This document shows, piece by piece, positions 1 through 23,234 of a stretch of 29,185 nucleotides of DNA. The stretch is taken from IMG/VR virus record IMGVR_UViG_3300028840_002020, positions 1-29,185 of that record; one strand, given 5' to 3'. Under the pieces are notes generated by a model. It was given only the letters and a program-made list of their open reading frames with translations. It was not told the origin of the DNA and did not search any database. The translations under genes and the position numbers were made by a program. The stretch's first letter is position 1. Each line of letters opens with the position of its first letter. The DNA comes from a virus.

Positions 1-2
1 GG

Positions 3-851
3 TTCGGGACAGGGGTCAACGACGGGGGCGCCCTCGAAGATCCGACGGTCGCGTCGAAGTTGCTCCCGCTGATCAAACAAAGCCGCGGCAAGATCGCGAA
101 GGTGATCGCGCTTGCGGGTCGGCTCAAGCGAGAGGCGGCGAACGAGCAGAGGAAGGCGCCGCGCTTCGGCGCTGGCGAGCCCGTCGACGTTACGCTCGGC
201 GACGACCTCTCCGATCTCATGCCGGTCGAATACACGAACCGCGCGGTCGAGGGTCCGCTATGGCTCGCGCGCTACGTCGACCGCGCGCTCCTCACGCGCA
301 AGCGTCGCGACGAAGAGCCGAGCAAGACCGGGCCGGTTGTCATGTGTGTTGACTGCTCGGGCTCCATGAGCGGCGATCGGTACGCGTGGGCGATGGCGAC
401 GACGCTCGCTTATTTGCAGATCGCGCGCGAGCAACGGCGCACCTTCGCGGTCGTGTTCTTCGCGTCCAGTGTGATCCGCGTCGTGCGCTTCCCCGGCTCC
501 GACAAGGTCGACCCCTCCGCGGTCGTCGATCTGCTCTCGTTCGTTCGCCCCGGTGGAGGGACGGCGTTCGCCGAGCCGCTCGACGCGGCGTACAAGATCA
601 TTCGCGAGGAGCCCGACTACAACAAAGCCGACGTGATCATGATCACCGACGGGGGATGCTACTTGACCGACGAGTGGCTCGACAACTGGAACGCGACCCG
701 CAAGCGCGACGGCGTGGGGGTCTTCTCGATCCTGATCGGGATCGGCGTAGAGGGGAGCACGAACGAGAGGTTCAGCGACGAGACCGTGAGCCTCGACGAC
801 GAGATAAGCAAGGGCGACGCCGACGCGATCCCGCTCTTCGGGAGGGTTTAG
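3..851 (+). CDS. VWA-domain protein (ViaA/CoxE-like), 5' end missing
   Basis: The frame is open from base 3, so the gene starts upstream of the window; a TTG at 60 is only an internal in-frame codon. The visible 282 residues hold a von Willebrand A fold: the MIDAS signature DCSGSMS, a later GGGTAF threonine loop and an ITDGG aspartate. These three elements together bind a divalent metal. The stretch before the VWA (basic helices, then GDDLSDLMPVEYTN) resembles the linker found in ViaA/CoxE-type proteins, which work with MoxR-family AAA+ ATPases. A MoxR partner would be expected upstream but is outside the window. The stop lies 4 bases before the Top6A-like gene, so the two are probably co-transcribed. 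The VWA call is firm; the ViaA-like assignment and any partner are inference. Confidence 0.85.
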   Translation, partial: FGTGVNDGGALEDPTVASKLLPLIKQSRGKIAKVIALAGRLKREAANEQRKAPRFGAGEPVDVTLGDDLSDLMPVEYTNRAVEGPLWLARYVDRALLTRKRRDEEPSKTGPVVMCVDCSGSMSGDRYAWAMATTLAYLQIAREQRRTFAVVFFASSVIRVVRFPGSDKVDPSAVVDLLSFVRPGGGTAFAEPLDAAYKIIREEPDYNKADVIMITDGGCYLTDEWLDNWNATRKRDGVGVFSILIGIGVEGSTNERFSDETVSLDDEISKGDADAIPLFGRV

Positions 852-855
852 AAAA

Positions 856-1740
856 ATGAAAAAACAGTTCGACGACATCAACCTTCGCGGCGACTCGTTG
901 GAGAGGATCGAGACGATCAATCTGATACTTGAAAACTACGCGCGACAGGGATTCGACCTCACTCTTCGCCAGCTTTATTACCAGCTTGTTTCGAGAGACA
1001 TTATCCCGAACAATTTGAAGTCGTATAACCGACTCGGCGACGTCGTGAACAAGGGGCGCCTCGTCGGTCTGATCGATTGGGATATGATCGTCGACCGGGG
1101 GCGCTCGACCAATTGGGGCGCGCACTGGGAGAGCCCCGCGGAGATCGTGAACGCCGCGGCGAATCAGTTCAGGATCGACAAGTGGGAGGATCAGCCCTGG
1201 CACGTCGAGGTATTCGTCGAGAAGCAAGCGCTCGAAGGCGTGCTGATCCCTACGTGCGAGCGGCTCGATGTGCGCTTCACGGCAAACAAGGGATACTCTT
1301 CGCAATCATTCATGTACCGGAAGGGCGTCGCGTTGCGCGAGAAGATAGACGAGGGGAAAGAGATCGCGATCCTCTACCTCGGGGATCATGATCCGAGTGG
1401 GCTCGACATGGATCGCGACGTGTTGGAGAGGCTCGCCGCGTTTGCCCGCGTCGAGGTTGACGACCTCACGTTCGAGCGGCTCGCCTTGACACGCGAACAG
1501 ATCAGGCAGTACACACCGCCGCCGAACCCGGCGAAGATTACGGACTCGCGCGCTGGTCGCTACATAGCGAAACACGGGCGCGTTTCATGGGAGCTTGACG
1601 CCTTGGAACCGCGCGTTCTCGCGAAGCTGGTCTCGGACGCGGTTCTCAAGTTCAGGGACGAAGACCGATGGGACGCGGCGGTCAAGCGCGAGCGCAAAAT
1701 GCGCGACGACCTCAAGGCGTTCGCGAGGGACTACCGATGA
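856..1740 (+). CDS. Topo mini-A-like protein (Spo11/Top6A family, no B subunit)
   Basis: This 294-residue protein has the two-domain plan of the type IIB topoisomerase A subunit. The N-terminal winged-helix (5Y-CAP) part carries TLRQLYYQL with a Tyr41-Tyr42 pair at the place of the catalytic tyrosine in Top6A and Spo11. The C-terminal part is a TOPRIM domain with EK at 122-123 and LGDHDPSGLD (Asp177, Asp179), matching the Top6A DxDPxG motif. It is shorter than archaeal Top6A, and no Top6B (GHKL ATPase) gene lies in the window. This fits the Topo mini-A class described in mobile elements. It should cleave DNA through a 5'-phosphotyrosyl link; whether it is a topoisomerase or a break-maker is unknown. 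ATG at 856 follows the VWA stop closely. The next gene starts inside its stop codon. Confidence 0.8.
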   Translation: MKKQFDDINLRGDSLERIETINLILENYARQGFDLTLRQLYYQLVSRDIIPNNLKSYNRLGDVVNKGRLVGLIDWDMIVDRGRSTNWGAHWESPAEIVNAAANQFRIDKWEDQPWHVEVFVEKQALEGVLIPTCERLDVRFTANKGYSSQSFMYRKGVALREKIDEGKEIAILYLGDHDPSGLDMDRDVLERLAAFARVEVDDLTFERLALTREQIRQYTPPPNPAKITDSRAGRYIAKHGRVSWELDALEPRVLAKLVSDAVLKFRDEDRWDAAVKRERKMRDDLKAFARDYR

Positions 1741-1886
1741 GCGGCGACCAGATCCGCGGCTGGCTTCTCCTCGCGCTCTTCCTGCGCGCGTATCCGTGGG
1801 GATTTTTCGAGGCGTTCGAGGCGTTGCTATTGACGGGGCTCCGTACTTTCGCCGCCCTCACAATTGCCACCTTCCCAAGAAAGTAG
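1737..1886 (+). CDS. small hydrophobic protein, probable single membrane segment
   Basis: This 49-residue ORF starts at an ATG overlapping the TGA of the Top6A-like gene (ATGA), the usual translational coupling in this window. Most of the protein is hydrophobic and aromatic (GWLLLALFLRAYPWGFF, then EALLLTGL), which suggests one or two short membrane helices. I do not recognise the family. Size and coupling suggest an accessory to the upstream gene, but no function can be read from the sequence. It could also be a chance ORF, though the overlapping start argues against that. Confidence 0.5.
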   Translation: MSGDQIRGWLLLALFLRAYPWGFFEAFEALLLTGLRTFAALTIATFPRK

Positions 1887-1897
1887 TTGGTAAATTC

Positions 1898-1926
1898 TTG
1901 CCAAGTGGTGAGCGGATCGCTAGGTT
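1898..1926 (+). promoter_or_regulatory. weak sigma70-like promoter candidate
   Basis: This lies in the 71-base gap before the Cas4-like gene. TTGCCA (1898-1903) and TAGGTT (1921-1926) are separated by exactly 17 bases, each matching 4 of 6 consensus positions. The gap is visibly richer in A/T than the flanking genes. A short CAAGAA/TTCTTG dyad also falls here. Matches this weak occur by chance, so this is only a candidate. Confidence 0.25.
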
Positions 1927-1957
1927 TGATCTCACTGGCAATCGTTCGGGGGAACGC

Positions 1958-3199
1958 ATGAAGAGAGAGAGAGTTATCACAGACACCTCGCGCGCGCGCT
2001 TCCTAGCGTGTCCGCGGCGCTACGACTTCGAGGTCGTGCGAATGCAAGAGCGCGAGAAACCCGGCTTCTCACGCTCGCGAGAGTTCGACGATTCCGCGCG
2101 CGAAATGCTCGCCGCGTTCGAGCTACTCAGGGGATGGGGGATCGAGTATCGCGAGGCGGCGATCGGCGCTTGCGGGTCGGAGTTGCTTCGGCTCGCTGGC
2201 GAAGACGAGAGGCGACGCGAGGCGATCGAGTCGGCGCTCGCGGTCGTGTTGCGCTACGCTCGAAAGCATGAAGACGATCTCCGAGGCGTTGCCACCGACG
2301 GCGACCTTCCGATCGTGGCGCATCCGGTTTCGACCCCGCTCCTCGTTCCGTGCCGCTCTTGTGGCGGGCTCGGTTGCGAATCGTGTTCCCAGTTGCGCGA
2401 GGCGGGATGGCGCCGCGCGACCCCGTGGCAATATCGAACGGTTCTCGATTCCGCGGTTTGGATCAATGGCGAGCCCTGGCTCGTCGTGAGGCGCTTCACG
2501 GGCGGCTCGGACGTCGCCGAGATTCGGGACGGTCTAGGGTATCGCTTCGACGACCTCGGGCAATTGTGGGCATTCTCGAAGCTCATAGACGCAACCCCGC
2601 GGGGGATTCTCTACGATGTGATCAGGCGCTCCGCTCCGAGCGAGCCCAAAACGATCAAGTGTCGCAAGTGCAATGGGAGCGGGACGATGGACCCGGCGAC
2701 GGGCGAAGTGTGTCCCGCGTGTGACGGGACCGGCGTCGGCGGTATCTCGAAAGCCGCGTGTGATACGGATCTCTCGACATGGTGGGAAGTCGCTCGCCGG
2801 TATCCTCACCTCGACACGGACGCGCTAAAAGACGAACACGCGGAGCAATTACAGCGAATCAGATCTCGCGGCGACTCATTCTCGTTTCGCGTTGCCCGCG
2901 CAGTCGACCCCGAAGAGATCGTCGAGTGGCGGCGCGAGGCTTACGAAGTGGCGAAAGAGATCGAGCGGTGCGAGAGATCGGGATCATGGCGGCGGAATCA
3001 CCTAGCGTGCAAGGCACCGGGGCGCCGCTGTCCGTTCCGATCGATCTGCGCGAAGCACGACGTCACGCTCTCCGATCGCCTCTCCTTTGCCACAACAGAA
3101 AACCCCGCCGCTCTCGACGCGTGGCGCCCGAGGATCGGCGTCGAGATCGGGCACAACATGATCGAAAAATTAATCTATGAACACGGAGAACCACGATGA
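1958..3199 (+). CDS. Cas4/RecB-fold (PD-(D/E)XK) protein with DnaJ-type zinc fingers
   Basis: The frame is open from 1595, but ATG 1958 with GGGGGAA just upstream is the likely start (413 aa). The N-terminus has FLACPRRYDFE (Cys18), the RecB/Cas4 opening motif. The C-terminus has Cys351, Cys358 and Cys364 in a CPFRSIC context, which with Cys18 resembles the iron-sulfur staple of Cas4/AddB nucleases. QLWAFSKL near 202-209 matches the downstream QxxxY motif. Two zinc-binding inserts follow DnaJ spacing: Cys132/135/140/143 and Cys235/238/252/255 (CxxCxGxG type). The expected D-x-K centre after LDSAVW (164-169) reads LVVRRFTG, so the catalytic Asp and Lys appear replaced. It may be a DNA-binding or end-sensing relative rather than an active nuclease. 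It sits directly upstream of the exonuclease-RecT pair. Confidence 0.7.
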   Translation: MKRERVITDTSRARFLACPRRYDFEVVRMQEREKPGFSRSREFDDSAREMLAAFELLRGWGIEYREAAIGACGSELLRLAGEDERRREAIESALAVVLRYARKHEDDLRGVATDGDLPIVAHPVSTPLLVPCRSCGGLGCESCSQLREAGWRRATPWQYRTVLDSAVWINGEPWLVVRRFTGGSDVAEIRDGLGYRFDDLGQLWAFSKLIDATPRGILYDVIRRSAPSEPKTIKCRKCNGSGTMDPATGEVCPACDGTGVGGISKAACDTDLSTWWEVARRYPHLDTDALKDEHAEQLQRIRSRGDSFSFRVARAVDPEEIVEWRREAYEVAKEIERCERSGSWRRNHLACKAPGRRCPFRSICAKHDVTLSDRLSFATTENPAALDAWRPRIGVEIGHNMIEKLIYEHGEPR

Positions 3200-3615
3200 C
3201 CGATAAGGCTTATTTGCCTAACGAATACTTCGCCGTTTTCTTGAAGAACGGGCTCCCGGCTTTCTACCGCTTGGAGTTGATCAAGATTTGCGGGAAGTAC
3301 GCCAGCGCCGACGGCGAGATCTTCTCACCCCATCGAAGCCCCCAAGGGATTTACCTCACGTTCGACGGGGAGCGGGTGCCGACCCGTAGCGACAGCTTCG
3401 GATGGTTCGGCGATTTCAACCTCGGGGGGGATCGGGCCGAACTCAGGGATCACGAGGGCCCCCTCGGAGATCCGAAACAACTCTACACCGACAAGGGCGA
3501 CGCGCTCCGCGCGTTCGTCGCGTGGTGCGAACAGGCAAAGGGAAAGATCGACGGCATGATCGCGAAGGTCTCGCCGCTAATCGAAGAGGAGCACAGCGAT
3601 GATAACGACGCGTGA
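3196..3615 (+). CDS. unknown protein between the Cas4-like and exonuclease genes
   Basis: This 139-residue soluble protein starts at an ATGA overlap with the Cas4-like gene and runs 17 bases into the exonuclease gene. I do not recognise it. The N-terminus is mixed aromatic and hydrophobic (NEYFAVFLKNGLPAFYRLELIK), the middle is rich in Gly and Asp, and the C-terminus is a helix ending in an acidic tail (IEEEHSDDNDA). No membrane segment, Cys pair or nucleotide-binding loop is visible. Tight coupling on both sides suggests a role in the recombination operon, by position only. Confidence 0.75.
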   Translation: MTDKAYLPNEYFAVFLKNGLPAFYRLELIKICGKYASADGEIFSPHRSPQGIYLTFDGERVPTRSDSFGWFGDFNLGGDRAELRDHEGPLGDPKQLYTDKGDALRAFVAWCEQAKGKIDGMIAKVSPLIEEEHSDDNDA

Positions 3616-4570
3616 GGAATGGCTCGAAGCTCGACGGAGCGGGATCGGCGGTAGCGAGTCGCCCGTCATTTTCAACGGTAGGCTTTACGGCACGACGATC
3701 ACGGATCTCTATCTTGAGAAGCGGAGGGTCGTCGAGGCTCCCGATATCTCGCATGTTCCCGACGTTCAGAGGGGGAACGCTCTCGAAGGGATCGTCGCGC
3801 AACTCTACGCCAGCGAATACGGGGTCGAGGTCGACGCCCCGATCGACGACATCGATCGGTGGAACCGTTTCTTCATTCGCAACTCCGAGCTTCCGTTCAT
3901 GTTCGCGAACGTCGACTTCGCGGTCGGCGACGTGCGAAAGGTGATCGGGGAGATCAAGTGTCCGCGCGTCCGCGGTTTCATGAAGGTCAAGAACGAGGGG
4001 CTTCACGATCACTATCTGATCCAGGGGCTTCACAATATGGCGGTCACTGGCGCGGAGAGGTGCGTCTTCGTGATCTTCTCGGCGGAGCTGTGGAAGATGC
4101 ACGTCGAGGTCGTAGAGCGCGACGAGCAAGTGATCGCGAAGATAGTCGCGGCTAACCGTGATTTTTGGGAGTGTGTCCAGAACGGAGAGCCGCCCGTCGA
4201 GCCCGCTCCCGGCGAGCGTGCGCCGATGGCGAAGAGCGACGCGCTTCCCTCCGTCGACGGAGAGGAAGTCGCGAGAGTTGACTCCGCCGATTTCGCCGCG
4301 GCGGTATCTCAGTACCTCGAAGCGGGAGACATTCTCGAAGACGTGAAGACCTTGCAATCCGAGGCAAAGGATCAGATCGTGTCTCTCATGGGCAACGCTT
4401 CGATTGCGGAAGGTGGCGGCGCCCGCGTGTATTACAAAGAGCAAGCGGGGCGCAAGACGTTCGACAAGAAAGCGCTCAAGGCTTCCCACCCCGATATCGA
4501 TCTGAGCAAGTTCGAGAAAGAGGGAAAGCCGTTCCGCGCGTTCAGAATCTACCGGACCAACAGCGAATAA
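3599..4570 (+). CDS. YqaJ-family viral exonuclease (lambda exonuclease type)
   Basis: The 323-residue product degrades the 5' strand of double-stranded DNA ends to expose 3' single strands for the annealing protein. The family motifs are complete: RRSGIGGSE at 12-20, NALEG with Glu63, NVDF with Asp106, GEIK with Glu118 and Lys120 (the D...ExK catalytic set), and QGLHNMAVTG with Gln142. After about residue 210 there is an extra helical C-terminal region ending in a basic segment; a bare YqaJ domain is near 200 residues. The ATG overlaps the preceding gene by 17 bases. The RecT gene follows after 33 bases with its own GGAGG, the standard exonuclease/annealase pairing of phages. Confidence 0.93.
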   Translation: MITTREEWLEARRSGIGGSESPVIFNGRLYGTTITDLYLEKRRVVEAPDISHVPDVQRGNALEGIVAQLYASEYGVEVDAPIDDIDRWNRFFIRNSELPFMFANVDFAVGDVRKVIGEIKCPRVRGFMKVKNEGLHDHYLIQGLHNMAVTGAERCVFVIFSAELWKMHVEVVERDEQVIAKIVAANRDFWECVQNGEPPVEPAPGERAPMAKSDALPSVDGEEVARVDSADFAAAVSQYLEAGDILEDVKTLQSEAKDQIVSLMGNASIAEGGGARVYYKEQAGRKTFDKKALKASHPDIDLSKFEKEGKPFRAFRIYRTNSE

Positions 4571-4603
4571 AGAAACCAATCCCCACAACGGAGGAAAAAT
4601 AAA

Positions 4604-5572
4604 ATGGCAAAGAACACGGGCAAGAACAACGAGAACAAGCAACAGGATCTAGCGCCAACGGGCAACGACCAGGGGTCCCCGTCGCAAGCGCTCGCGCCGC
4701 CTAGCAAGCTCGCGACGTTGCGCGACGGTTTCGCGCGAAAGCGGAGCCAGATCTCCGCGGCGCTCCCGAAGATGATCGACCCGAACCGCTTCATGCGGAT
4801 CGTAATGTCGACGCTCAAGGCGGATTCAAAACTGCTCGATTGCACCACCGAGTCGATCTTTCGCGCGGTGCTGGCGTCCGCTCAAGTCGGTCTCGAACCC
4901 GACCCCGTGCTCGGTCACGCGTACCTGATCCCGTTCTGGAACTCGCGGGCGCGTTCGCTCGAAGCGTCGTTCCTGATCGGATACAAAGGGCTCATCGAAC
5001 TCGCGCGTCGCTCGGGACAGGTGATATCGATCAGCGCTCAAGTCGTCTACTCTGGCGACGTGTTCGAGTTCGAGTATGGGCTCGACGAGGATCGGTTCAT
5101 TCACAAGCCCGCCCTCGGTATCGAGGACAGGGGGGAGCCGATCGCGGTATGGGCGAAAGCCGCACTCAAGGACGGCGGGCGCGCGTTCGAGGTAATGAGC
5201 GTTTCCGACGTCAACAAGATCCGCGACATGGGGAACGCGAAGAACTCGAAGGGCGATATCGTCGGACCGTGGCGCGACCACTGGGATGAGATGGCGAGGA
5301 AGACCGCGGTTCGCAAGCTCGCGAAGTATCTCCCGCTCTCCTCGGAGTTCCAACGCGCCGCGGCTCTCGACGAGGCGATCGAACTCGGACACGCTACCGA
5401 GTCGTTGTTCCCCGAGATCGACGGCGAAGTGATCGACGGAGAGGCGGAGCCGACCGGCACCGCTTCCAAACTGGACAACTTGCGGAGCCGCGCCGACAAG
5501 GTCAAGGAAGGCTCTCAGGCTACCGAGGGCGGCGAGGGAGCCGAGGACAAGGGAAACCCCGAAGATAAGTAG
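4604..5572 (+). CDS. recT: RecT-family single-strand annealing protein
   Basis: The 322-residue product anneals complementary single strands made by the adjacent exonuclease. The RecT core is clear: LPKMIDPNRFMRIVMSTL, then LLDCTTESIFRAVLASAQVG, LEPDPVLGHAYLIPF, the conserved FLIGYKGLIELARRSG, and late in the domain GPWRDHWDEMARKTAVRK followed by RKLAKYLPLS. The first about 35 residues are a polar, low-complexity leader (many Asn, Gln, Lys). The last about 60 are acidic and Gly-rich, probably disordered, as in other RecT tails that contact SSB or the nuclease. GGAGG sits 12 bases before the ATG. Length is slightly above the usual 260-300 because of both tails. Confidence 0.95.
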   Translation: MAKNTGKNNENKQQDLAPTGNDQGSPSQALAPPSKLATLRDGFARKRSQISAALPKMIDPNRFMRIVMSTLKADSKLLDCTTESIFRAVLASAQVGLEPDPVLGHAYLIPFWNSRARSLEASFLIGYKGLIELARRSGQVISISAQVVYSGDVFEFEYGLDEDRFIHKPALGIEDRGEPIAVWAKAALKDGGRAFEVMSVSDVNKIRDMGNAKNSKGDIVGPWRDHWDEMARKTAVRKLAKYLPLSSEFQRAAALDEAIELGHATESLFPEIDGEVIDGEAEPTGTASKLDNLRSRADKVKEGSQATEGGEGAEDKGNPEDK

Positions 5573-5588
5573 AACGGCGACGAGAGAG

Positions 5589-5622
5589 GCTCTCAGGCGC
5601 GCTCACGGGCATGTCTGAGGGC
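5589..5622 (+). other. hairpin in the recT-initiator gap
   Basis: GCTCTCAG (5589-5596) pairs with CTGAGGGC (5615-5622) with one G-T pair, giving an 8-bp stem over an 18-base loop. The same GGCTCTCAGGC string also occurs 78 bases upstream at 5510-5520, inside the end of recT. There is no T-run, so this is not a classical terminator. It could be an mRNA structure before the initiator gene or a protein site. Confidence 0.3.
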
Positions 5623-5642
5623 TTCCCTCCGCGGGGTGACCC

Positions 5643-6716
5643 ATGAAGACGAATTCCACTGGTAGAATTTACAGGCCGGTCGAGTGCTTTCTGTGGAGAG
5701 ATCCGCGGTTTGCTTCTCTCTCGGTAGATTCAAAAATCTTGTGGCTCTACTTGTTGACCTCGCCGCACTCGCTCCCGATCCCCGGCTGGATCACGGCGAC
5801 CCGTATCGACATTGTGCTCGACCTTGGATGGTGGAGCGAGGACGATCCCGACGCTCTCCCCGACGCTCTCTCTCGTTTCGTGGCGGCGTTCGAACCCATT
5901 GTCGAAATGGGATGGGCCCGAGAGGATCGATCGGCGCGTGTCGTCATGTTGCCGAAAGCGGTTCGGCGCCGACTTCCGATCTCAAGCAAGAACGTGATCG
6001 GCTGGTTCAACTCTATTCGCGAGATCCCGAAAACGGATCTTATGTCTGTTTGGGCGGTCGAGGCGCTCCGCATTTTGCGTCAAGAGTTTGGGTCTAACGA
6101 TCCCCGCGTTGCCACTTTCAAGTCAAAGTTTGCGGAGGCGCTACGAGTCGAAGAGGGCCCCGAGAACAATGTTCCGAACAATGATGGCAACAATGATCGG
6201 ACAATGAACCCAACATTGCACGAACAAGGGAAAGGGAAAGGGAAAGGGAAAGATCGGTGCGTGCGCCCGCGACATACAAGCGATGATCGATCAACGTCTT
6301 CGTTGTTGGGCGAAGAACGTGTTCAGGAATTTGGGGATCGCGAGAAAGGAACAAGCGCAATTGCCACTTCCCTTTTGAGTGAAGGGGAGAGGGAGATCCT
6401 CGCTTTGCTCGAACGACAGTTTGGTGATCGCCTAGCAGACATGAAGACCAAGGCGATCGCCGACCTAGTGAGAGACCTCAACGATCCGGTTGCCTATCCC
6501 GGCGTCAATCCTCTTGAGCAGATCTCGAAGGCGGGATCATGGGAGAGGGGACAGCGCCAGAAAAAAACCGCGGCGGGACTTGGACGCTTTCTTCGAGGGT
6601 GGCTCGGGCGTGCGAGCGGAGGGGCGCGACAGGATCAAAAGACAAATACAAAAAGCGGAGGCGATCCGAATTACAAGTCGCCGTCGCTTCGACCACTATC
6701 GGAGAATCAAGATTGA
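5643..6716 (+). CDS. putative phage replication initiator / helicase loader
   Basis: The 357-residue product starts with RIYRPVECFLWRDPRFASLS and continues SKILWLYLLTSP. This resembles the winged-helix start of phage replisome organizers and DnaD-like initiators. The middle (about 172-200) is a low-complexity Asn-rich linker encoded by phased CAATG repeats and a GGGAAA tract. The C-terminal half has LLSEGEREILALLERQFG and then a basic Gly/Arg/Lys-rich tail. The gene ends inside the start of the DnaB gene (TTGA overlap), the order seen in phages where the initiator recruits the helicase. Binding sites placed inside the initiator gene, as in lambda O, would make the gene its own origin. The family call rests on the N-terminal pattern and context and is moderate. 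Confidence 0.65.
   Translation: MKTNSTGRIYRPVECFLWRDPRFASLSVDSKILWLYLLTSPHSLPIPGWITATRIDIVLDLGWWSEDDPDALPDALSRFVAAFEPIVEMGWAREDRSARVVMLPKAVRRRLPISSKNVIGWFNSIREIPKTDLMSVWAVEALRILRQEFGSNDPRVATFKSKFAEALRVEEGPENNVPNNDGNNDRTMNPTLHEQGKGKGKGKDRCVRPRHTSDDRSTSSLLGEERVQEFGDREKGTSAIATSLLSEGEREILALLERQFGDRLADMKTKAIADLVRDLNDPVAYPGVNPLEQISKAGSWERGQRQKKTAAGLGRFLRGWLGRASGGARQDQKTNTKSGGDPNYKSPSLRPLSENQD
6166..6218. repeat. phased CAATG repeats, iteron-like (cluster A)
   Basis: CAATG occurs at 6167, 6179, 6191 and 6202, spaced 12, 12 and 11 bases, followed by an inverted copy CATTG at 6214-6218. Units read ACAATGTTCCGA, ACAATGATGGCA and ACAATGATCGG. They lie in the linker part of the initiator gene, where they encode an Asn-rich run. 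Nearly the same units with the same spacing recur in non-coding DNA at 22784-22835, so the DNA word rather than the peptide seems to be conserved. An origin with initiator-binding iterons is the leading reading. Confidence 0.65.
6226..6253 (+). repeat. homopurine GGGAAA tandem repeat
   Basis: Four GGGAAA units (6228-6251) form an uninterrupted 28-base purine run, 7 bases after the CAATG cluster. In the protein this is a short Gly-Lys repeat. Mirror-symmetric purine tracts can unwind or form triplex DNA, so it could serve as the melting element beside the iterons. Simple slippage of a linker is the alternative. Confidence 0.7.
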
Positions 6717-8092
6717 GCGACGAACCTCGTAAGCCACCTTTCGACATGGACGCCGAGCGCGCGATCCTTGGCTCGGTGTTACTCAACAACGACGCGCTCG
6801 CGCTGGTCCGTCACTGGATAACCGAGCGCGACTTCTACGTGGTTGCACACTCGACGATCTTTTCGGGCATGTTGGAATTGCAAGAGGACGGCGTCGGGAT
6901 TGACACTGTGACCCTCGGGAGCCTACTTACTCGCAAAGGTGAACTCGCTCGCGTCGGCGGTCCGATGGTCTTCGACGGTCTCCTCGATAGCGTTGCGACA
7001 GTCGCAAACGTGGAACACTACGCTCGGATCGTTGCGGAGAAATCCGCGGTGCGTCGTGTGATACATGCGGCGCAAGGCATAGTCGCCGACGGGTTCGCTG
7101 ATACCTGGGACGCCGAAGACTACCTGATCGAATCACAGAGCGCGATCTCGAAAGCGGCGTCGGCGTTTGCCGAGCGCGGCGACACTGTGAAGGAACTCGG
7201 CGACGGCATTGTTGAAACCGCACGAAGAGCAATCGAGGGGCGCGATCCCACTACGCTGATCAAGACGGGTATCTCGGCGATAGATCAATCCGTGGGCGGT
7301 CTTTGGCCCAAAGAGTTGACGGTCATCGGTGGGCGCCCCGGCATGGGGAAGAGTGCGTTCGCGCTGAACCTCGCTATCAATGCGGATCTTGCGGGTCGCC
7401 GGTCGTTGATCTTCACGCTCGAAGACGGGATCGAAAATTTTCAGCAACGGGCGCTCGCCATTCGCTCGCGCGCAACCATGAACCGAATCAGGCGGCGCGC
7501 TGTTCAAGATCCCGAGAAGCTCTTGAGCGCCGCGGAGCGTTTGCGTGAGGTGAAGATCGGGCTCAACGAAACACCGGGGCTTTCCGCTCCCGAGATCTAT
7601 TCGAAGGCGGTCGCCTATCGTGCGAAGCACGGGTCGCTCGATCTTCTGATAATCGATCACTTGCGGAGAATGAGAGGGCGCGGTCAAAGCCGTTACGACA
7701 GGGTTTCTGATTCGGTGCAACGGTGCGCGGACATGGCGAAGGATCTCGGCATCCCGGTCGTGCTCCTCGCACAGTTGAACCGCAAGCTCGAAGAGAGAGA
7801 GGACAAGCGCCCGCGCGCCTCGGACTTGCGGGAGTCGGGAACAATCGAAGAGGACGCTCGCGCGATTTGGTTCCTGTATCGACCGTGGGTTTACGACCGA
7901 GATGCCGACGAGCACGAAGCCGAGTTGATCGTGTCGAAGAGCAATCACGGATCTATCGGCACGATCAAATTGTGGTGCTCCATGAGCGAGATGCGCTTCT
8001 TACCTTGGGCCGGGATTGGAACGACACCCTCCGATCCCTTTGAGGGTGAAACGCGGGACATGTTTCCCGGCAGCAACGGAGATGACTATTGA
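6713..8092 (+). CDS. dnaB: replicative DNA helicase, DnaB family
   Basis: The start is TTG 6713, overlapping the TGA of the initiator gene (TTGA), with GGAGA 7 bases upstream; the longer open frame from 6539 lies entirely inside the initiator gene. The 459-residue product has the DnaB N-terminal helical domain (DMDAERAILGSVLL) and linker, then the RecA-like ATPase: GGRPGMGKSA (Walker A, 206-215), LLIIDHLRRM (Walker B, Asp315), and VVLLAQLNRKLEEREDKRPRASDLRESG with the sensor and arginine-finger region. It unwinds the phage fork as a hexamer on the 5'-3' strand. Walker B usually reads IDYLQL; the His316-Leu-Arg variant is mildly unusual. The next gene starts within its stop codon. Confidence 0.96.
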   Translation: MSDEPRKPPFDMDAERAILGSVLLNNDALALVRHWITERDFYVVAHSTIFSGMLELQEDGVGIDTVTLGSLLTRKGELARVGGPMVFDGLLDSVATVANVEHYARIVAEKSAVRRVIHAAQGIVADGFADTWDAEDYLIESQSAISKAASAFAERGDTVKELGDGIVETARRAIEGRDPTTLIKTGISAIDQSVGGLWPKELTVIGGRPGMGKSAFALNLAINADLAGRRSLIFTLEDGIENFQQRALAIRSRATMNRIRRRAVQDPEKLLSAAERLREVKIGLNETPGLSAPEIYSKAVAYRAKHGSLDLLIIDHLRRMRGRGQSRYDRVSDSVQRCADMAKDLGIPVVLLAQLNRKLEEREDKRPRASDLRESGTIEEDARAIWFLYRPWVYDRDADEHEAELIVSKSNHGSIGTIKLWCSMSEMRFLPWAGIGTTPSDPFEGETRDMFPGSNGDDY

Positions 8093-9273
8093 CCGACGTC
8101 AACAATGACTCAAACGCAACGGTGCTGGTTTGTCAGTGCCGATCGCTTTCCTTCGAGGTTGTTAAGGCCCGCAAGAACTCGATCGATCTCAAGTGCGCCA
8201 AGTGCGGGCTTCCCGCGTCGGTCAAGGCGGCGGGCGTCAACTCGACACCCGTCGAGCAGAGGATCGCGGAGCGCGCGTCGCGGAGCGGCGTCGTTACGTG
8301 CGGAGTGCCGAGCCCTAAGAAAAAGAAACCGAAGGAAGGCGACCAGGGGGGAGCCTCGGGATCGCTGTCCGAGCGAGGCATGAAGACGTTTCGATTTCTT
8401 GTCACCGCGGAACAAGCGGAGACCGTCCATCGCGCGCTCGAAGCGATCCGGCTTCTCAATTTGCGCGACGAGAAATTCCGCGCCCAAACATATCAGGCTC
8501 ACGCGATCGAATACCTCGCGGCGGATTTCCTCGGAGGTGTTCCCCCGCTGATCTTGGATCTCATGGCGGCGGCGGAGGAGCGGATCGACGAAGAGATCCA
8601 GGCGGCGGAAGAGAGGGGCGAGCCGCTGAGTGCGTGGAAGGTTCGCCGAATGAGAGCGGCGAGTCGTGACGAGTTGGCGGAGGAAGTAACAAAGCGGTTC
8701 GACGGAGCCGTGGAAGAGGACGAACCCGCCGACCCGCAAGAACCCGAGGATGAGCCCGACGAACTCGACGTCGTTCCCTTACGGGTCGGAGGGGGAGAGC
8801 AACGGGACGGCGGATCGGTATCTGCAAAAGAGGTCGATCTCTCAGGCGATGGCGAGGAAGTGATCGAGGTTGGGGAAGACTCGGGGGATTACTACGACAG
8901 CGACGAGGACGCGCTCGAATCCTCGGACAACGACGACGGGGGGAGACTGTACGCGGCGGTAACCGCGGCGTTCAGATCGGCGGCTGGCGGCTTTCTCGTG
9001 AGCGTGGGAGAGACCGGGCTCGAAAAGGCCCGCTCTCATTGGGACGCCTCGGGGGGATATCTCCTTTCGATTATCGGAGACCCCGACACGGCGACCGAAG
9101 ACGGAGAGGTTCCTCGCGTCTACGTTTGGATGGAGGGCGACGAGGAGATCGAACTCTCCGAGGAATACGCGAAACTGGTTCCCGGTGGCGAGCTTGGGGT
9201 TATCGAATTGGTAGACGTCCCCCATCCCGATTGGGACGCGCCAATGGTGGCGGATACAAGGGAGGTGCTATGA
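8089..9273 (+). CDS. unknown protein with N-terminal zinc ribbon and acidic C-terminus
   Basis: A TTG start overlaps the DnaB stop (TTGA). The 394-residue product opens with a four-Cys ribbon, CQC then about 20 residues then CAKCG, followed by a Lys-rich patch (KKKKPK). Around 100-200 it is helical (FRFLVTAEQAETVHRALEAIRLLNL, then LMAAAEERIDEEIQAAEERG). From about 215 to 290 it is strongly acidic, and it ends in a small beta-rich domain with repeated VYVWMEGDEEIELS-type strands. I do not recognise the family. The zinc ribbon and coupling to DnaB suggest a replication or transcription role, by context only. The motif TTRCGGGTCG occurs twice here in opposite orientations (8730, 8779), 40 bases apart. 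Confidence 0.8.
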   Translation: MTDVNNDSNATVLVCQCRSLSFEVVKARKNSIDLKCAKCGLPASVKAAGVNSTPVEQRIAERASRSGVVTCGVPSPKKKKPKEGDQGGASGSLSERGMKTFRFLVTAEQAETVHRALEAIRLLNLRDEKFRAQTYQAHAIEYLAADFLGGVPPLILDLMAAAEERIDEEIQAAEERGEPLSAWKVRRMRAASRDELAEEVTKRFDGAVEEDEPADPQEPEDEPDELDVVPLRVGGGEQRDGGSVSAKEVDLSGDGEEVIEVGEDSGDYYDSDEDALESSDNDDGGRLYAAVTAAFRSAAGGFLVSVGETGLEKARSHWDASGGYLLSIIGDPDTATEDGEVPRVYVWMEGDEEIELSEEYAKLVPGGELGVIELVDVPHPDWDAPMVADTREVL

Positions 9274-9641
9274 GCACGGACACGGACAGGAAAAAAGGGA
9301 GAGCCTTGCCGGACGTTTCGGAAGAGATCCTCAAGGCTATCGAGGAAGAGATCGCGACGCTCAACAAGTGGGAAGAGGCGGCGCCGGATGTGCCGTCAAA
9401 GATAGCTTGCGTCGAGGCGCGCGCCCGTCTCAAGGCTTACGTCGCGGCGCTGATCGTCGAGGCAGATATCAAGGTCGTGTCGGCGGTGCGCTCAATGGTC
9501 GCGATGGACTCGGCTCGCGCTCGCGCTGGCGCGGGGATCGGAAAACTTCTCGGCGGCATGGCGCCGACCCGCAAGGACAACGATCAACCGGCGAAGGCGA
9601 GCGAAGGGGAGAGCGAGATCGGTGAAGGTCCGCAAGACTGA
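9270..9641 (+). CDS. unknown helical protein
   Basis: The 123-residue product starts at an ATGA overlap. It is almost entirely predicted helix: a Glu-rich stretch (EEILKAIEEEIATLNKWEEAAP) followed by an Ala/Arg-rich helix with heptad-like spacing, then a polar tail. No catalytic motif, Cys pair or membrane segment is visible. It is the last gene of the replication block before the lysis genes. Confidence 0.75.
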   Translation: MSTDTDRKKGRALPDVSEEILKAIEEEIATLNKWEEAAPDVPSKIACVEARARLKAYVAALIVEADIKVVSAVRSMVAMDSARARAGAGIGKLLGGMAPTRKDNDQPAKASEGESEIGEGPQD

Positions 9642-9673
9642 TCGAGCGATTCGGACGTGGTAGAATCGGTCGC

Positions 9674-9682
9674 GGAGGTGAT
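9674..9682 (+). promoter_or_regulatory. full-length Shine-Dalgarno fixing the amidase start
   Basis: GGAGGTGAT is fully complementary to the 3' end of 16S rRNA and lies 4 bases before ATG 9687. It chooses this start over the in-frame GTG at 9657. It is the strongest ribosome site I noticed, which fits a gene needing high translation. Confidence 0.75.
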
Positions 9683-9686
9683 AGCT

Positions 9687-10541
9687 ATGATCGGAAAACA
9701 AGTCTCTTTCACGGGGAAGCCCTTCGACTCGAACAACGCGTTCGCGTTGCGCGGCAACCTCTACGACATCGGAACAAGGGTCATTCGTTGGACTGATCCG
9801 ACAGGCTTCAACGGCTACGAAAAAAAACGCGCGGTTGTCGAGGTAGAGAACCGCAAGACCGGGAGGGTGACCCGCAAGGTGATCAAGGGGGCGCGCTACT
9901 CAAAGCGAGCCGTGGTCGGCGACGGGCTCAACAAGATCTCGCAGTTCTTCATTCACCATACGGGGGGCCCTCTCGCCGAGCGTGCCTTCGAGACCCTCCA
10001 CAACAATCGAAAGCTCTCGGTTCCCTTCATTCTCTCCGACGTTGGCGTTACCTATCAGACCCTCGACGCGATTGAAAAGGCGTGGCAAGCTGGCAAGCAC
10101 AACCCGATCTCGGTTGGCGTCGAGTGTTGTCTTTACCCGTCCGCGGATCGTAATCCCGACTACTACAGTGAGGCTCGTTGCAAGCGGCTAGGGATGGCGC
10201 CTCACGAGGTCATGGAGGATCGAATTCACGGTCGCAAGTGGGAGGTGTTCAAGTTCACCGACGCACAAGTCGAGGCGCTCGCGCGCCTCGCGGCGGGGAT
10301 GTGGCTCGCGCTCAAGCTCGAAGGTGACACCAAGATTCCAGACGAACCGCCGCGGTTCTTCCGTGACGAGTCGGGCGAGATTCCTCGCACCGTGATCGCG
10401 AACCCGCTCAAGTGGACCGGGATGATCGGTCACCTTCAAGCGACGCGCCGCAAGGTCGATCCCGCGGGCTTCCCGTGGGAAGAGTTCGAGGCGCGCGTTG
10501 CGGAAATCTTCTACTCGTTCCGCGCGAAGGTTCGGGGATAG
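9687..10541 (+). CDS. N-acetylmuramoyl-L-alanine amidase (amidase_2/T7-lysozyme-like endolysin)
   Basis: The 284-residue product should cut the bond between muramic acid and the stem peptide of peptidoglycan. FFIHHTGG (His90/91) gives the first zinc ligand. VTYQTLDA fits the substrate-groove segment after it, NPISVGVECC the central strand, and GHLQATRRKVDPAGFPW the second ligand His249 with Lys256 and Asp258, the classical GHxxxxxxKxDP ending. About 75 residues precede the catalytic domain; they carry basic residues and no obvious cell-wall-binding repeat. No signal peptide is visible, so release would need a holin. The lytic transglycosylase gene follows after 9 bases. Confidence 0.9.
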   Translation: MIGKQVSFTGKPFDSNNAFALRGNLYDIGTRVIRWTDPTGFNGYEKKRAVVEVENRKTGRVTRKVIKGARYSKRAVVGDGLNKISQFFIHHTGGPLAERAFETLHNNRKLSVPFILSDVGVTYQTLDAIEKAWQAGKHNPISVGVECCLYPSADRNPDYYSEARCKRLGMAPHEVMEDRIHGRKWEVFKFTDAQVEALARLAAGMWLALKLEGDTKIPDEPPRFFRDESGEIPRTVIANPLKWTGMIGHLQATRRKVDPAGFPWEEFEARVAEIFYSFRAKVRG

Positions 10542-10550
10542 GGGGCGACA

Positions 10551-11465
10551 ATGTTGAGGCGCTTACCTTTTCTTTTCCTGATTCTGATCCTCGCCACGTT
10601 CGCGATCGGAAGTGCGATGTCGCGCGCGGTCGAGGAACAATCCATTCGAGGCGCGGAGTTGCGCGCGGCGCTAGAGCCGACGACCGAGTTCGTGGAGCCG
10701 CTAGACGTCGACCCGTTGCCGGTGACCGAGTTCGATCCGATCGGCGCGCTCAAGGCTCACGGTCGATATTTCCCAAGCGACGATCAACTCAAGACGATCG
10801 GGCGCCTTGCCGACGGGATCTACAAGGTGCGAACCGTCAAAGGGTCCGTCCCGATGTGGTATTGCGGCGAACCATACGAGGGCGACGCCGCTCGGGAACT
10901 CTCGATGACTATCGCGTGGCATGTGGTTCGCTCCGCGTGGGAAGCCAGCGACGATCGCTTCGAGCTTTCCCCGTGGCTTTGGGCCGGGCTCATATCGACC
11001 GAGAGCGGTTTCGATCTCTGTACGCTTGGACTGAACCCGAGGCGCGCGGCGTATCGGCTCGGCGTGCTCAAGCCGCGCAAGCGCACGATCTCGCATACCC
11101 GAGAGGAAGTGATCCGCGCTATCAATGATCCGAAGCTGTCCTCGCTCTTCCCTCGATTCGATCTAGGCATGGGGCAAACCCTCGACTCGCACTATCGCGC
11201 ATACCTGCGCTTCGAGAACAAAGAGGGGAAGAGCGAAGATCTGATCGAATGGTCGGGGTTCTACTGGCAAGCAACCTACCTTCACGGTCTAGCGGTGAGG
11301 CACCAAACAAAACGCCCGTGGGCGTTCTGGCCCGGTTACCGCGCGGCGTGGAAGGACGCGAAGGTTACTCGTTACGCGCGCGCCTTGGGCGCGACGCCCG
11401 AGGAAGTAGGAACCCCCATAGACGCCCCGCAACGAGCGAGGCAACGGAGGAAGAGCCGTGACTAA
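10551..11465 (+). CDS. secreted lytic transglycosylase-like protein (SLT fold)
   Basis: The 304-residue product begins with RR and a hydrophobic stretch LPFLFLILILATFAIGSAM, a signal peptide or membrane anchor. The SLT signature is AGLISTESGFD with the catalytic Glu151 followed by Ser152; DLGMGQTLDSHYRAYL gives the later GxxQ-type strand. An unusually long stretch (about residues 40-130) lies between the signal and the catalytic Glu. It should cleave the MurNAc-GlcNAc glycan backbone from the periplasmic side, complementing the upstream amidase. The C-terminus is Arg-rich. The next gene overlaps the stop by 8 bases. Confidence 0.75.
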   Translation: MLRRLPFLFLILILATFAIGSAMSRAVEEQSIRGAELRAALEPTTEFVEPLDVDPLPVTEFDPIGALKAHGRYFPSDDQLKTIGRLADGIYKVRTVKGSVPMWYCGEPYEGDAARELSMTIAWHVVRSAWEASDDRFELSPWLWAGLISTESGFDLCTLGLNPRRAAYRLGVLKPRKRTISHTREEVIRAINDPKLSSLFPRFDLGMGQTLDSHYRAYLRFENKEGKSEDLIEWSGFYWQATYLHGLAVRHQTKRPWAFWPGYRAAWKDAKVTRYARALGATPEEVGTPIDAPQRARQRRKSRD

Positions 11466-14831: not shown

Positions 14832-15056
14832 ATGCGGAAAAAGAAGTTCATCGCGTGGTCTAAGCGACTGCGCGAGACGAAGATCCGTGCGATCACCGAA
14901 GCGCTCGAAGCGAGCGATGGGTTTGTCCCCGAGGCGGCGGACTTGCTCGACGTGGCGCCGCGCACGTTGCGAAGGTGGCTCCACGATCTCGGGCTCGGTC
15001 ACCTCTCGCTTTATCGCAGCGGCGGAGAGCCCTCGAAGAGAGCGGGCAAACCATGA
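14832..15056 (+). CDS. small Fis-type helix-turn-helix protein
   Basis: The 74-residue basic protein has AITEALEASDGFVPEAADLLDVAPRTLRRWL split over about 20-50. This is the Fis/NtrC C-terminal HTH pattern, with the AAxxLxVxxRTLxRWL recognition helix followed by LGL. It probably binds DNA as a dimer and may regulate this block. Its start is 12 bases after the peptidase gene and its stop overlaps the RuvC-like start. Confidence 0.75.
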   Translation: MRKKKFIAWSKRLRETKIRAITEALEASDGFVPEAADLLDVAPRTLRRWLHDLGLGHLSLYRSGGEPSKRAGKP

Positions 15057-15634
15057 GCGGGAAAGCCGTTGTCATAGCGGTCGACCCCGGCGCCAAGTCG
15101 GGATATGCGATCCTAACGGTAGAGCCATCGCCGCGGCTTCTTTACTTCGGGGTGGTCAAGGCGAAAGAGACCAGCGTGAGCCGCGTTCTCGGCGACGTGA
15201 TCGCGACGTTGGTTCGGGAACATCCCGACGTTACGCGGATCGAGCGGGGCGTGATCGAGGATCAGTTTCTCGGGTTCGCGAAGCCGAAGGTCGTCAACGG
15301 TCGACCCGTAAAGACCAACACCGCGATCCCGCAGTCGATGAAAAAGGTCGCGCGCGTTGCGGGTCGCTGGCAAGAGGCGTTCATGTCTCACGATATCCCT
15401 TACGTCGAAGGCGACGACGACGTTCACCCGCAATCGTGGCAATCGAGAGAACTCGGAACGGGATCGAAGAAAGGGCGCGACGCGCTCAAGAAACAATGCG
15501 CCGAAAAGGTGAAGGGGGTCTTCGGTCTCAAGTCGATACCGCAAGACGCCGCCGACGCCGTCTTGATTGGTCGGTATCGTGCGATCGAGTTGGCGACAAA
15601 GATCAGACAAGGGGTTTCGATCGGTGGAGTCTGA
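15053..15634 (+). CDS. RuvC-like Holliday junction resolvase
   Basis: ATG 15053 overlaps the HTH stop (ATGA); 193 residues. The RNase H-fold acidic residues are in place: VIAVDPGAKSGYAIL (Asp11), GVIEDQFLG (Glu69) and QDAADAVLIGRYRA (Asp165, Asp168). This is the RuvC-type arrangement used by many phages to cut four-way and branched DNA before packaging. It would finish intermediates made by the exonuclease/RecT pair. Length matches RuvC (about 170-195). Confidence 0.88.
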   Translation: MSGKAVVIAVDPGAKSGYAILTVEPSPRLLYFGVVKAKETSVSRVLGDVIATLVREHPDVTRIERGVIEDQFLGFAKPKVVNGRPVKTNTAIPQSMKKVARVAGRWQEAFMSHDIPYVEGDDDVHPQSWQSRELGTGSKKGRDALKKQCAEKVKGVFGLKSIPQDAADAVLIGRYRAIELATKIRQGVSIGGV

Positions 15635-22158: not shown

Positions 22159-22605
22159 ATGGAACTCAAGAGCGCGAGCGAGTGGAAGAAATACGTCGAC
22201 GCCAACAAGGGCGACGAATACGGGGAGGCGGTCTTGAAGTTCGCCGAGCGTTGGGCGAACGGGATCGAGAAGCGCATGAAGGGAGGGGAGACCCTCAAGG
22301 CGTGCGCGCGGTCCGTGTCGAAGGAAGCCAACAAGGGGATCGGGATCACTGGGTTCATGTACGGGCTCGGGGTGCTCATTCTCTCGAAGGTTTGGAAGTG
22401 GGGCGACGAGTTGAAGGCGTGGCATAACGAGCGGTACGGCAAGCCCGCGAAGGGCGGCGTCGCGAACCCCGCGGTCATGACCGTTGACACGAACAAGGAT
22501 CTCGCGAAGTCGGAACGGTTCGACGAAGAGCCCGATCTCATGTGGTCGGAGTTCGTCCCCGCGGCGTCGTTCTCGATAGCTGAGATCAGAAAGGCGGCGG
22601 TGTAG
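22159..22605 (+). CDS. unknown protein with amphipathic/hydrophobic centre
   Basis: The 148-residue product is basic and helical at the start (ELKSASEWKKYVDANKGDEYGEAVLKFAERWANGIEKRM), has a Gly-rich hydrophobic stretch (GIGITGFMYGLGVLILSKVWKWG) that could be a membrane or core helix, and an acidic end. I do not recognise it. It starts 1 base after the preceding stop. Confidence 0.7.
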   Translation: MELKSASEWKKYVDANKGDEYGEAVLKFAERWANGIEKRMKGGETLKACARSVSKEANKGIGITGFMYGLGVLILSKVWKWGDELKAWHNERYGKPAKGGVANPAVMTVDTNKDLAKSERFDEEPDLMWSEFVPAASFSIAEIRKAAV

Positions 22606-22606
22606 C

Positions 22607-22783
22607 ATGGCAGGAGGAGGCGGAGATTCGATCACGGCGGGAACCTTTCGCAAGTTCGACGGGCGCGCCTCGAAGGTGATCCAGGGAACGAGTGCTTGGA
22701 TTCTCGGTTTGCTCGGCGGGGGTTGGGTTCTCTTGAGCACCGACAAGGACGATCCCGATTTCAGGGCGGACCGCGTAGGATAA
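22607..22783 (+). CDS. small Gly-rich membrane protein
   Basis: The 58-residue ORF starts at ATG 22607 one base after the preceding stop. MAGGGGDS is followed by a basic stretch and one hydrophobic segment (AWILGLLGGGWVLLS), then an acidic end (TDKDDPDFRADRVG). The pattern suggests a single-span membrane protein. Its stop abuts the second CAATG repeat cluster. Confidence 0.6.
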   Translation: MAGGGGDSITAGTFRKFDGRASKVIQGTSAWILGLLGGGWVLLSTDKDDPDFRADRVG

Positions 22784-22835
22784 CAATGTTCCGATCAATG
22801 ATCGGATCAATGATAGGAACAATGTTCGAGCAATG
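22784..22835. repeat. phased CAATG repeats, iteron-like (cluster B)
   Basis: CAATG occurs at 22784, 22796, 22808, 22820 and 22831, spaced 12, 12, 12 and 11 bases. The first unit ACAATGTTCCGA matches cluster A at 6166 exactly. CCGATC (22791-22796) and GATCGG (22800-22805) form a near-palindrome. The run fills the gap before ATG 22833, whose start codon is inside the last repeat. Operator, second origin element or partition-type site are all possible. Confidence 0.7.
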
Positions 22836-23234
22836 AGCAACCTTTCGAAAAAGCTGAATAGACTCGCCGCTGTCAACGCGGAGGTTCGCGAGCGCGATCA
22901 GAATCGCGTGGGCTTTCTCGAAGACGGGATCGCGAGAATAGAGGAAGCGATTCGCAGGTTCGCCGAAGACGCGCCGCGGGCCCTCCCGCTCCCCGAGGGT
23001 GTCAACCCGTCATGGGATGAGCGAGGTGTTCCGTGGTGCGCGCAGACGTGCGAGTTCATAACGCGCGACGGGAAATGTACGCGCCCCGGCTACCCGGTCG
23101 ACCTCGGGGAACTCTGCGAGCCCGCGGTCGTAGTTCTCGCGGCGGAGTTCGCGAAGGCTCGCGCGGCGACACCGATTCGAATCCGCGTGAAGGCGAAGGC
23201 GACCGACGCGAAGACGGAGGGCGGCGATGAGTAG
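22833..23234 (+). CDS. unknown protein with four-cysteine cluster
   Basis: ATG 22833 lies in the last CAATG repeat; there is no good Shine-Dalgarno, because the repeats occupy that place. The 133-residue product has a helical start (KKLNRLAAVNAEVRERDQNR, RIEEAIRRFAEDAP) and WCAQTC, GKCTRPG and ELCEP, a CxxxC...C...C cluster that could hold zinc or iron-sulfur. The overlap with the repeats makes it a candidate for control by the repeat-binding protein. No family recognised. Confidence 0.65.
   Translation: MSNLSKKLNRLAAVNAEVRERDQNRVGFLEDGIARIEEAIRRFAEDAPRALPLPEGVNPSWDERGVPWCAQTCEFITRDGKCTRPGYPVDLGELCEPAVVVLAAEFAKARAATPIRIRVKAKATDAKTEGGDE

Follow-up and report, generated by a model that had tools for sequence, protein, structure and literature searches.

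The closest described parallel to the locus reported here is the Bacillus phage SPP1, whose initiator G38P binds both oriL, located within gene 38, and oriR, an intergenic site about 12-13 kb away; G38P on oriR has been proposed to stall replication forks, triggering concatemer synthesis by an exonuclease, an annealing protein and a resolvase (PMC6316719, PMC3485210). Iterons are bound by dimers of lambda-type O proteins (PMC7466680); in the lambdoid phages (lambda and the Stx phages) they lie midway along the initiator gene and are flanked on one side by an unwinding tract (PMC7466680, PMC4488673). These lambda papers describe no distant second array (PMC7466680, PMC4488673). Plasmid-borne ectopic copies of the lambda origin arrest phage replication (PMC4488673), which means that additional initiator arrays are capable of strong effects. 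Our literature search found no phage besides SPP1 with a distant second initiator array. A further point of comparison is provided by the phrog_25711 / phrog_1701 initiators of enterobacterial and Burkholderiales prophages, which carry near-palindromic linker iterons at 12-bp pitch, followed by short tandem repeats.

We analysed a 29,185-nucleotide viral stretch (IMG/VR record IMGVR_UViG_3300028840_002020, hereafter the window), in which CAATG repeats occur in two clusters, A and B, 16.6 kb apart. The sequence covers a fragment of the genome and has no end repeats; no tRNA genes were found in the window, and our observations rest on this one phage fragment. The features around the first cluster are as follows.

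5643 to 6716, plus strand: O-type replication initiator gene, with a predicted winged-helix N-terminal domain
6167 to 6218, plus strand: cluster A, four CAATG units (steps of 12, 12 and 11) with an inverted CATTG at 6214-6218; lies within the initiator gene and is proposed to hold the origin iterons
6226 to 6252, plus strand: (GGGAAA)4 purine repeat, immediately following cluster A; candidate unwinding element, matching in position the (CAGGAA)n of relatives
6539 to 8092, plus strand: DnaB-like replicative helicase gene, overlapping the end of the initiator gene; true start probably later than 6539

The initiator matches phrog_25711 (E 6e-7) and is 31-33% identical to two phage proteins annotated as DNA replication protein O or primosomal protein, and its N-terminal domain, homologous to that of the phrog_25711 / phrog_1701 initiators, is 27-37% identical to the domain in 25 of 26 bacterial-genome loci. 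It matched no Pfam family up to E 0.05, the replication protein O models included. The N-terminal domain was modelled with a pLDDT of 90 in a winged-helix arrangement, and the best structural neighbours of the model were the plasmid replication initiator domains 5kbj, 4pql, 4pt7 and 4pta (Z 8.6 to 7.9); yet sequence identity to these is 11-15%, a Z of 8.6 is not decisive, and we claim no membership of that group. With Foldseek alone, the domain had no significant match. The initiator gene also contains a perfect 12-bp duplication, CCCGACGCTCTC, at 5847-5870; its unit is other than CAATG, and it lies near the site of an upstream iteron array in relatives.

The CAATG units of cluster A start at 6167, 6179, 6191 and 6202, and the array (6167-6206) corresponds to about nt 525-565 of the initiator gene, in the linker. 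Profile searches yielded 79 further viral and 26 bacterial-genome initiator loci, making 106 with the window, most of them read only 10 kb to each side. The initiator genes of these relatives tend to have, around nt 430-530, tandem repeats spaced at 12 bp, whose units differ from CAATG and are near-palindromic too (GAAGSCTTC, CTTWGSCWAAG and GAATGATTC), and in most of the more diverse relatives the linker iterons are followed by (CAGGAA)n. Because the iterons and purine repeats of relatives occupy the same place in the initiator gene, cluster A is very probably the origin of replication of this phage. Of 100 related genes, 66% had a linker whose 12-bp periodicity exceeded synonymous-codon shuffles, as did the initiator gene of the window (p 0.015); two control regions exceeded their shuffles in 2-3% of genes and a third in 39%, and since the genes are moreover related to one another, we take the periodicity as supportive rather than decisive evidence for an origin. 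The arrangement resembles that of lambdoid origins, from which it differs in the 12-bp pitch (versus 19-bp iterons), in (GGGAAA)4 taking the place of an AT-rich tract, and in an initiator lacking a Pfam match.

The second cluster lies far downstream, among the following features.

22784 to 22835, plus strand: cluster B, five CAATG units, between the gene at 22607-22783 and the gene at 22833, and over the latter's start codon
22782 to 22826, no strand assigned: imperfect palindrome of 45 bp, centre 22804, 19/22 pairs, the strongest palindrome in the window
22786 to 22834, plus strand: open 16-codon ORF, a putative leader, reading MFRSMIGSMIGTMFEQ and then a stop that overlaps ATG22833 (ATGA)
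22833 to 23234, plus strand: gene for a 133-aa protein with a predicted N-terminal helix and four cysteines, its start codon in the last CAATG unit

An earlier note on this sequence had reported five CAATG units at steps of 12, 12, 12 and 11, a description that our counts bear out: the units start at 22784, 22796, 22808, 22820 and 22831, CAATG-N7-CAATG occurs 5 times in the window against an expectation of 0.01, and three or more consecutive units arose in 0/400 third-order Markov simulations of the window. The shorter last step is indeed common to both clusters, being 11 in each. The first units, which had been called identical, are nearly so, agreeing at 11/12 bases (CAATGTTCCGAA / CAATGTTCCGAT). 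A weight matrix built from cluster A alone, scanned on both strands, scored cluster B at 41.7 bits over three units and ranked it in the window directly behind A itself, whereas simulated maxima averaged 10.9 bits and reached 25 at the highest. Chance, or a neutral duplication without function, could be argued from the presence of the array in one phage only and from the lack of a relative with a distant second array (most loci having been read 10 kb to each side); against these stand the simulations, in which three units never arose and the best score remained far below that of cluster B, and the abrupt end of the similarity at the edges of the repeat. We therefore regard this explanation as very improbable. 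The arrays themselves match at 30/35 bases and their 60-base flanks at 19/60 and 18/60, about the chance level, so that what A and B share is the repeat and not a larger duplication. An isolated consensus unit, CAATGATCCGAA, lies at 11123-11134 inside the gene 10551-11465 and has the top single-unit score in the window.

The array fills a gap of 49 bp that follows the stop codon TAA 22781-22783, and it makes up most of the 80 bp of lowest GC content in the window (0.38, versus a mean of 0.617). Individual units show dyad symmetry, GAWCAATGWTC, about the central A, with 17/27 flank pairs complementary (p 3e-5 to 4e-4), and those of cluster B together make up the 45-bp palindrome; a dimeric initiator would predict such symmetry. 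The 6-bp purine repeat is present only at cluster A and absent beside cluster B, which argues against a full origin at cluster B and for a binding site or a barrier.

The earlier note had also held that protein sequence cannot be the common cause of the two clusters. This view agrees with our comparison, since the initiator frame through cluster A (NNVPNNDGNND) is unused in cluster B and the flanks are unmatched; on the sequence evidence, the common cause of arrays A and B is to be placed at the DNA level. The accompanying description of cluster B as non-coding is unproven, as an open ORF crosses the array: the ATGs of its first four units share one frame, opening the ORF from ATG22786 to TGA22834. 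Cluster A carries an analogous out-of-frame ORF, MFRTMMATMIGQ and a stop, and the 11-bp final step yields CAATGA in both clusters. Cluster B could act at the level of RNA or translation, either through a leader ORF coupled to gene 22833 by the overlapping ATGA or through an mRNA hairpin, with its likeness to cluster A being secondary. However, the Shine-Dalgarno pairing before ATG22786 is weak (-4.0), the alternative frame of cluster A lies within the initiator gene, and the RNA of cluster B folded no better than shuffles (z -0.97), whereas DNA parameters gave z -3.0. A structured RNA leader was dropped as a candidate on account of this missing fold excess and the absence of an Rfam match for the cluster B RNA. 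Altogether, we hold an explanation at the RNA or translation level to be quite improbable.

Sequence searches with gene 22833 found no relatives, and the structure model of its product is poor (pLDDT 59.5). As previously noted, its start codon falls in the last unit of the array (ATG 22833 inside CAATG 22831) and it lacks a clear Shine-Dalgarno sequence, the pairing being weak at -3.8 kcal/mol, where most genes here have -6 to -12. We found nothing resembling a promoter at the array, so transcription of gene 22833 probably comes from upstream. The gene at 22159-22605, upstream of cluster B, matches Tad4 (Pfam PF25186, E 4.5e-29), which inhibits type I Thoeris defence.

The position of the array over the start codon and weak ribosome site would suit a pure operator, at which the initiator, after replication has begun, only represses gene 22833, and perhaps downstream genes, with no role in replication. 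A parallel exists in the relatives, where repeats of the phage's own iteron type occur at the start codon of the initiator gene: median tandem scores were 27 at the 5' end of the initiator gene, 28 in the linker and 21 outside. Nevertheless, these 5' arrays are coding and exceeded synonymous shuffles in only 12% of genes, and the lack of a promoter-like site at cluster B also speaks against an operator. We consider the purely regulatory explanation unlikely, while giving it more weight than any of the other alternatives. In four enterobacterial loci (L158, L173, L156 and L196), repeats resembling the locus's own origin iterons span the initiator's start codon and recur near nt 240; codon-shuffle support is weak for the former position and stronger for the latter, and autoregulation is possible there.

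A different DNA-binding protein of phage or host, such as the Fis-type HTH protein (HTH_8) encoded at 14832-15056, might instead bind both arrays as a regulator, partition protein or nucleoprotein organiser. Tandem palindromic sites also fit partition or repressor proteins, and the window does encode this small protein of the HTH_8 family. However, nothing links the HTH protein to CAATG, and cluster A occupies the place held by iterons in relatives of the initiator and precedes a purine repeat of the kind seen in those relatives. Binding by such a protein appears improbable to us. The initiator is the best candidate for binding both arrays, as its relatives keep palindromic iterons of 12-bp pitch at the place of cluster A. 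From these comparisons we infer that it binds cluster A and, given the identity of the units, cluster B as well.

How common a second array might be was examined across the same loci. With each phage's own linker array as the query, a further array was present inside the initiator gene in 51/106 loci, and an array outside the initiator gene was present in the window only (z 13; most loci read 10 kb to each side). A whole-genome pattern search of twelve genomes or records found, among the matches listed, pairs separated by about 250 bp, with both members inside the initiator gene. These results suggest that a distant intergenic second array is unusual for the phrog_25711-type initiator family, the members of which differ from the window in their units (GAAGSCTTC or CTTWGSCWAAG types) and in keeping extra arrays within the initiator gene. 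Two copies of the same initiator gene, about 57 kb apart and both with extended iteron arrays (L243 and L244), lie on a single contig that is filed as a MAG of a Thermoplasmata archaeon; the contig may come from a bacterial prophage and be wrongly assigned, or the duplication may stem from assembly.

Viral contigs were scanned for the array as well. A pattern of three CAATG spaced 12 bp apart occurred in at least 120 stretches of viral contigs, nearly all of them coding repeats and unrelated. A stricter unit pattern gave, among IMG/VR contigs, only one credible match, in a near-identical contig of the same phage (L008), which was also the only match to the helicase query; it is 99.99% identical to the window over 578-9962 and ends at window position 9962. 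Positions 1-559 of this contig do not match window 1-577, indicating a variant or a junction at the left end. The palindromic unit pattern returned three loci, all unrelated, and a nucleotide search of phage genomes gave no match. In two unrelated phages, GAACAATGTTCAGAACAATGTTC lies inside a longer inverted repeat (L290:2343-2365 and L291:404-426).

The comparison with SPP1 draws on further genes of the window.

3599 to 4570, plus strand: YqaJ/RecE-like exonuclease gene
4604 to 5572, plus strand: RecT single-strand annealing protein gene
15053 to 15634, plus strand: Holliday junction resolvase gene, RuvC-like (phrog_1770)

In both phages one array lies within the initiator gene and a similar one is intergenic and more than 10 kb away (PMC6316719, PMC3485210), and both encode an exonuclease, an annealing recombinase, a resolvase and a DnaB helicase. 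SPP1 has an AT-rich island at the second site (PMC6316719, PMC3485210), and cluster B is AT-rich too, though most of its low-GC stretch is the array itself. The likeness described here is one of arrangement, and there are differences: the repeat is another one, cluster B has no purine repeat and extends over a start codon, and the gap, 16.6 kb in the window, is measured on a fragment. Furthermore, SPP1 has a separate helicase loader, gp39, whereas none was identified between the initiator and the helicase of the window.

We lean, by a modest measure, towards cluster B being a further array to which the O-type initiator of this phage binds, similar to oriR and also controlling gene 22833. At low initiator levels, the origin at cluster A, equipped with its purine repeat, would fire; as the initiator accumulates, cluster B would be filled too. 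Once filled, it could impede forks or serve for their late restart, as proposed for SPP1 oriR, and might favour a switch to recombination-dependent concatemer synthesis by the exonuclease, RecT and the resolvase. Filling of cluster B would also lower the expression of gene 22833, whose start codon and weak ribosome site the array covers. The stalling or restarting of forks at cluster B, suggested by analogy, and the repression of gene 22833 are both speculative. The looping together of the two arrays, which the earlier note had put forward next to a block of gene 22833, would be a further conceivable effect.

A bolder proposal, which we think rather unlikely, is that the initiator acts as a dosage-dependent regulator, its iterons at the start of an early gene, about 17 kb away and beside the Tad4 gene, serving both to shut that gene after replication has started and to mark a fork barrier. 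If true, this would link replication mode with early gene expression in a single element. More broadly, the comparisons suggest a recognition rule for origins of the phrog_25711-type initiator family, namely near-palindromic linker repeats at 12-bp pitch, usually followed by 6-bp purine repeats, and a case with a different initiator could show whether two-site control of the theta-to-sigma transition arose more than once.
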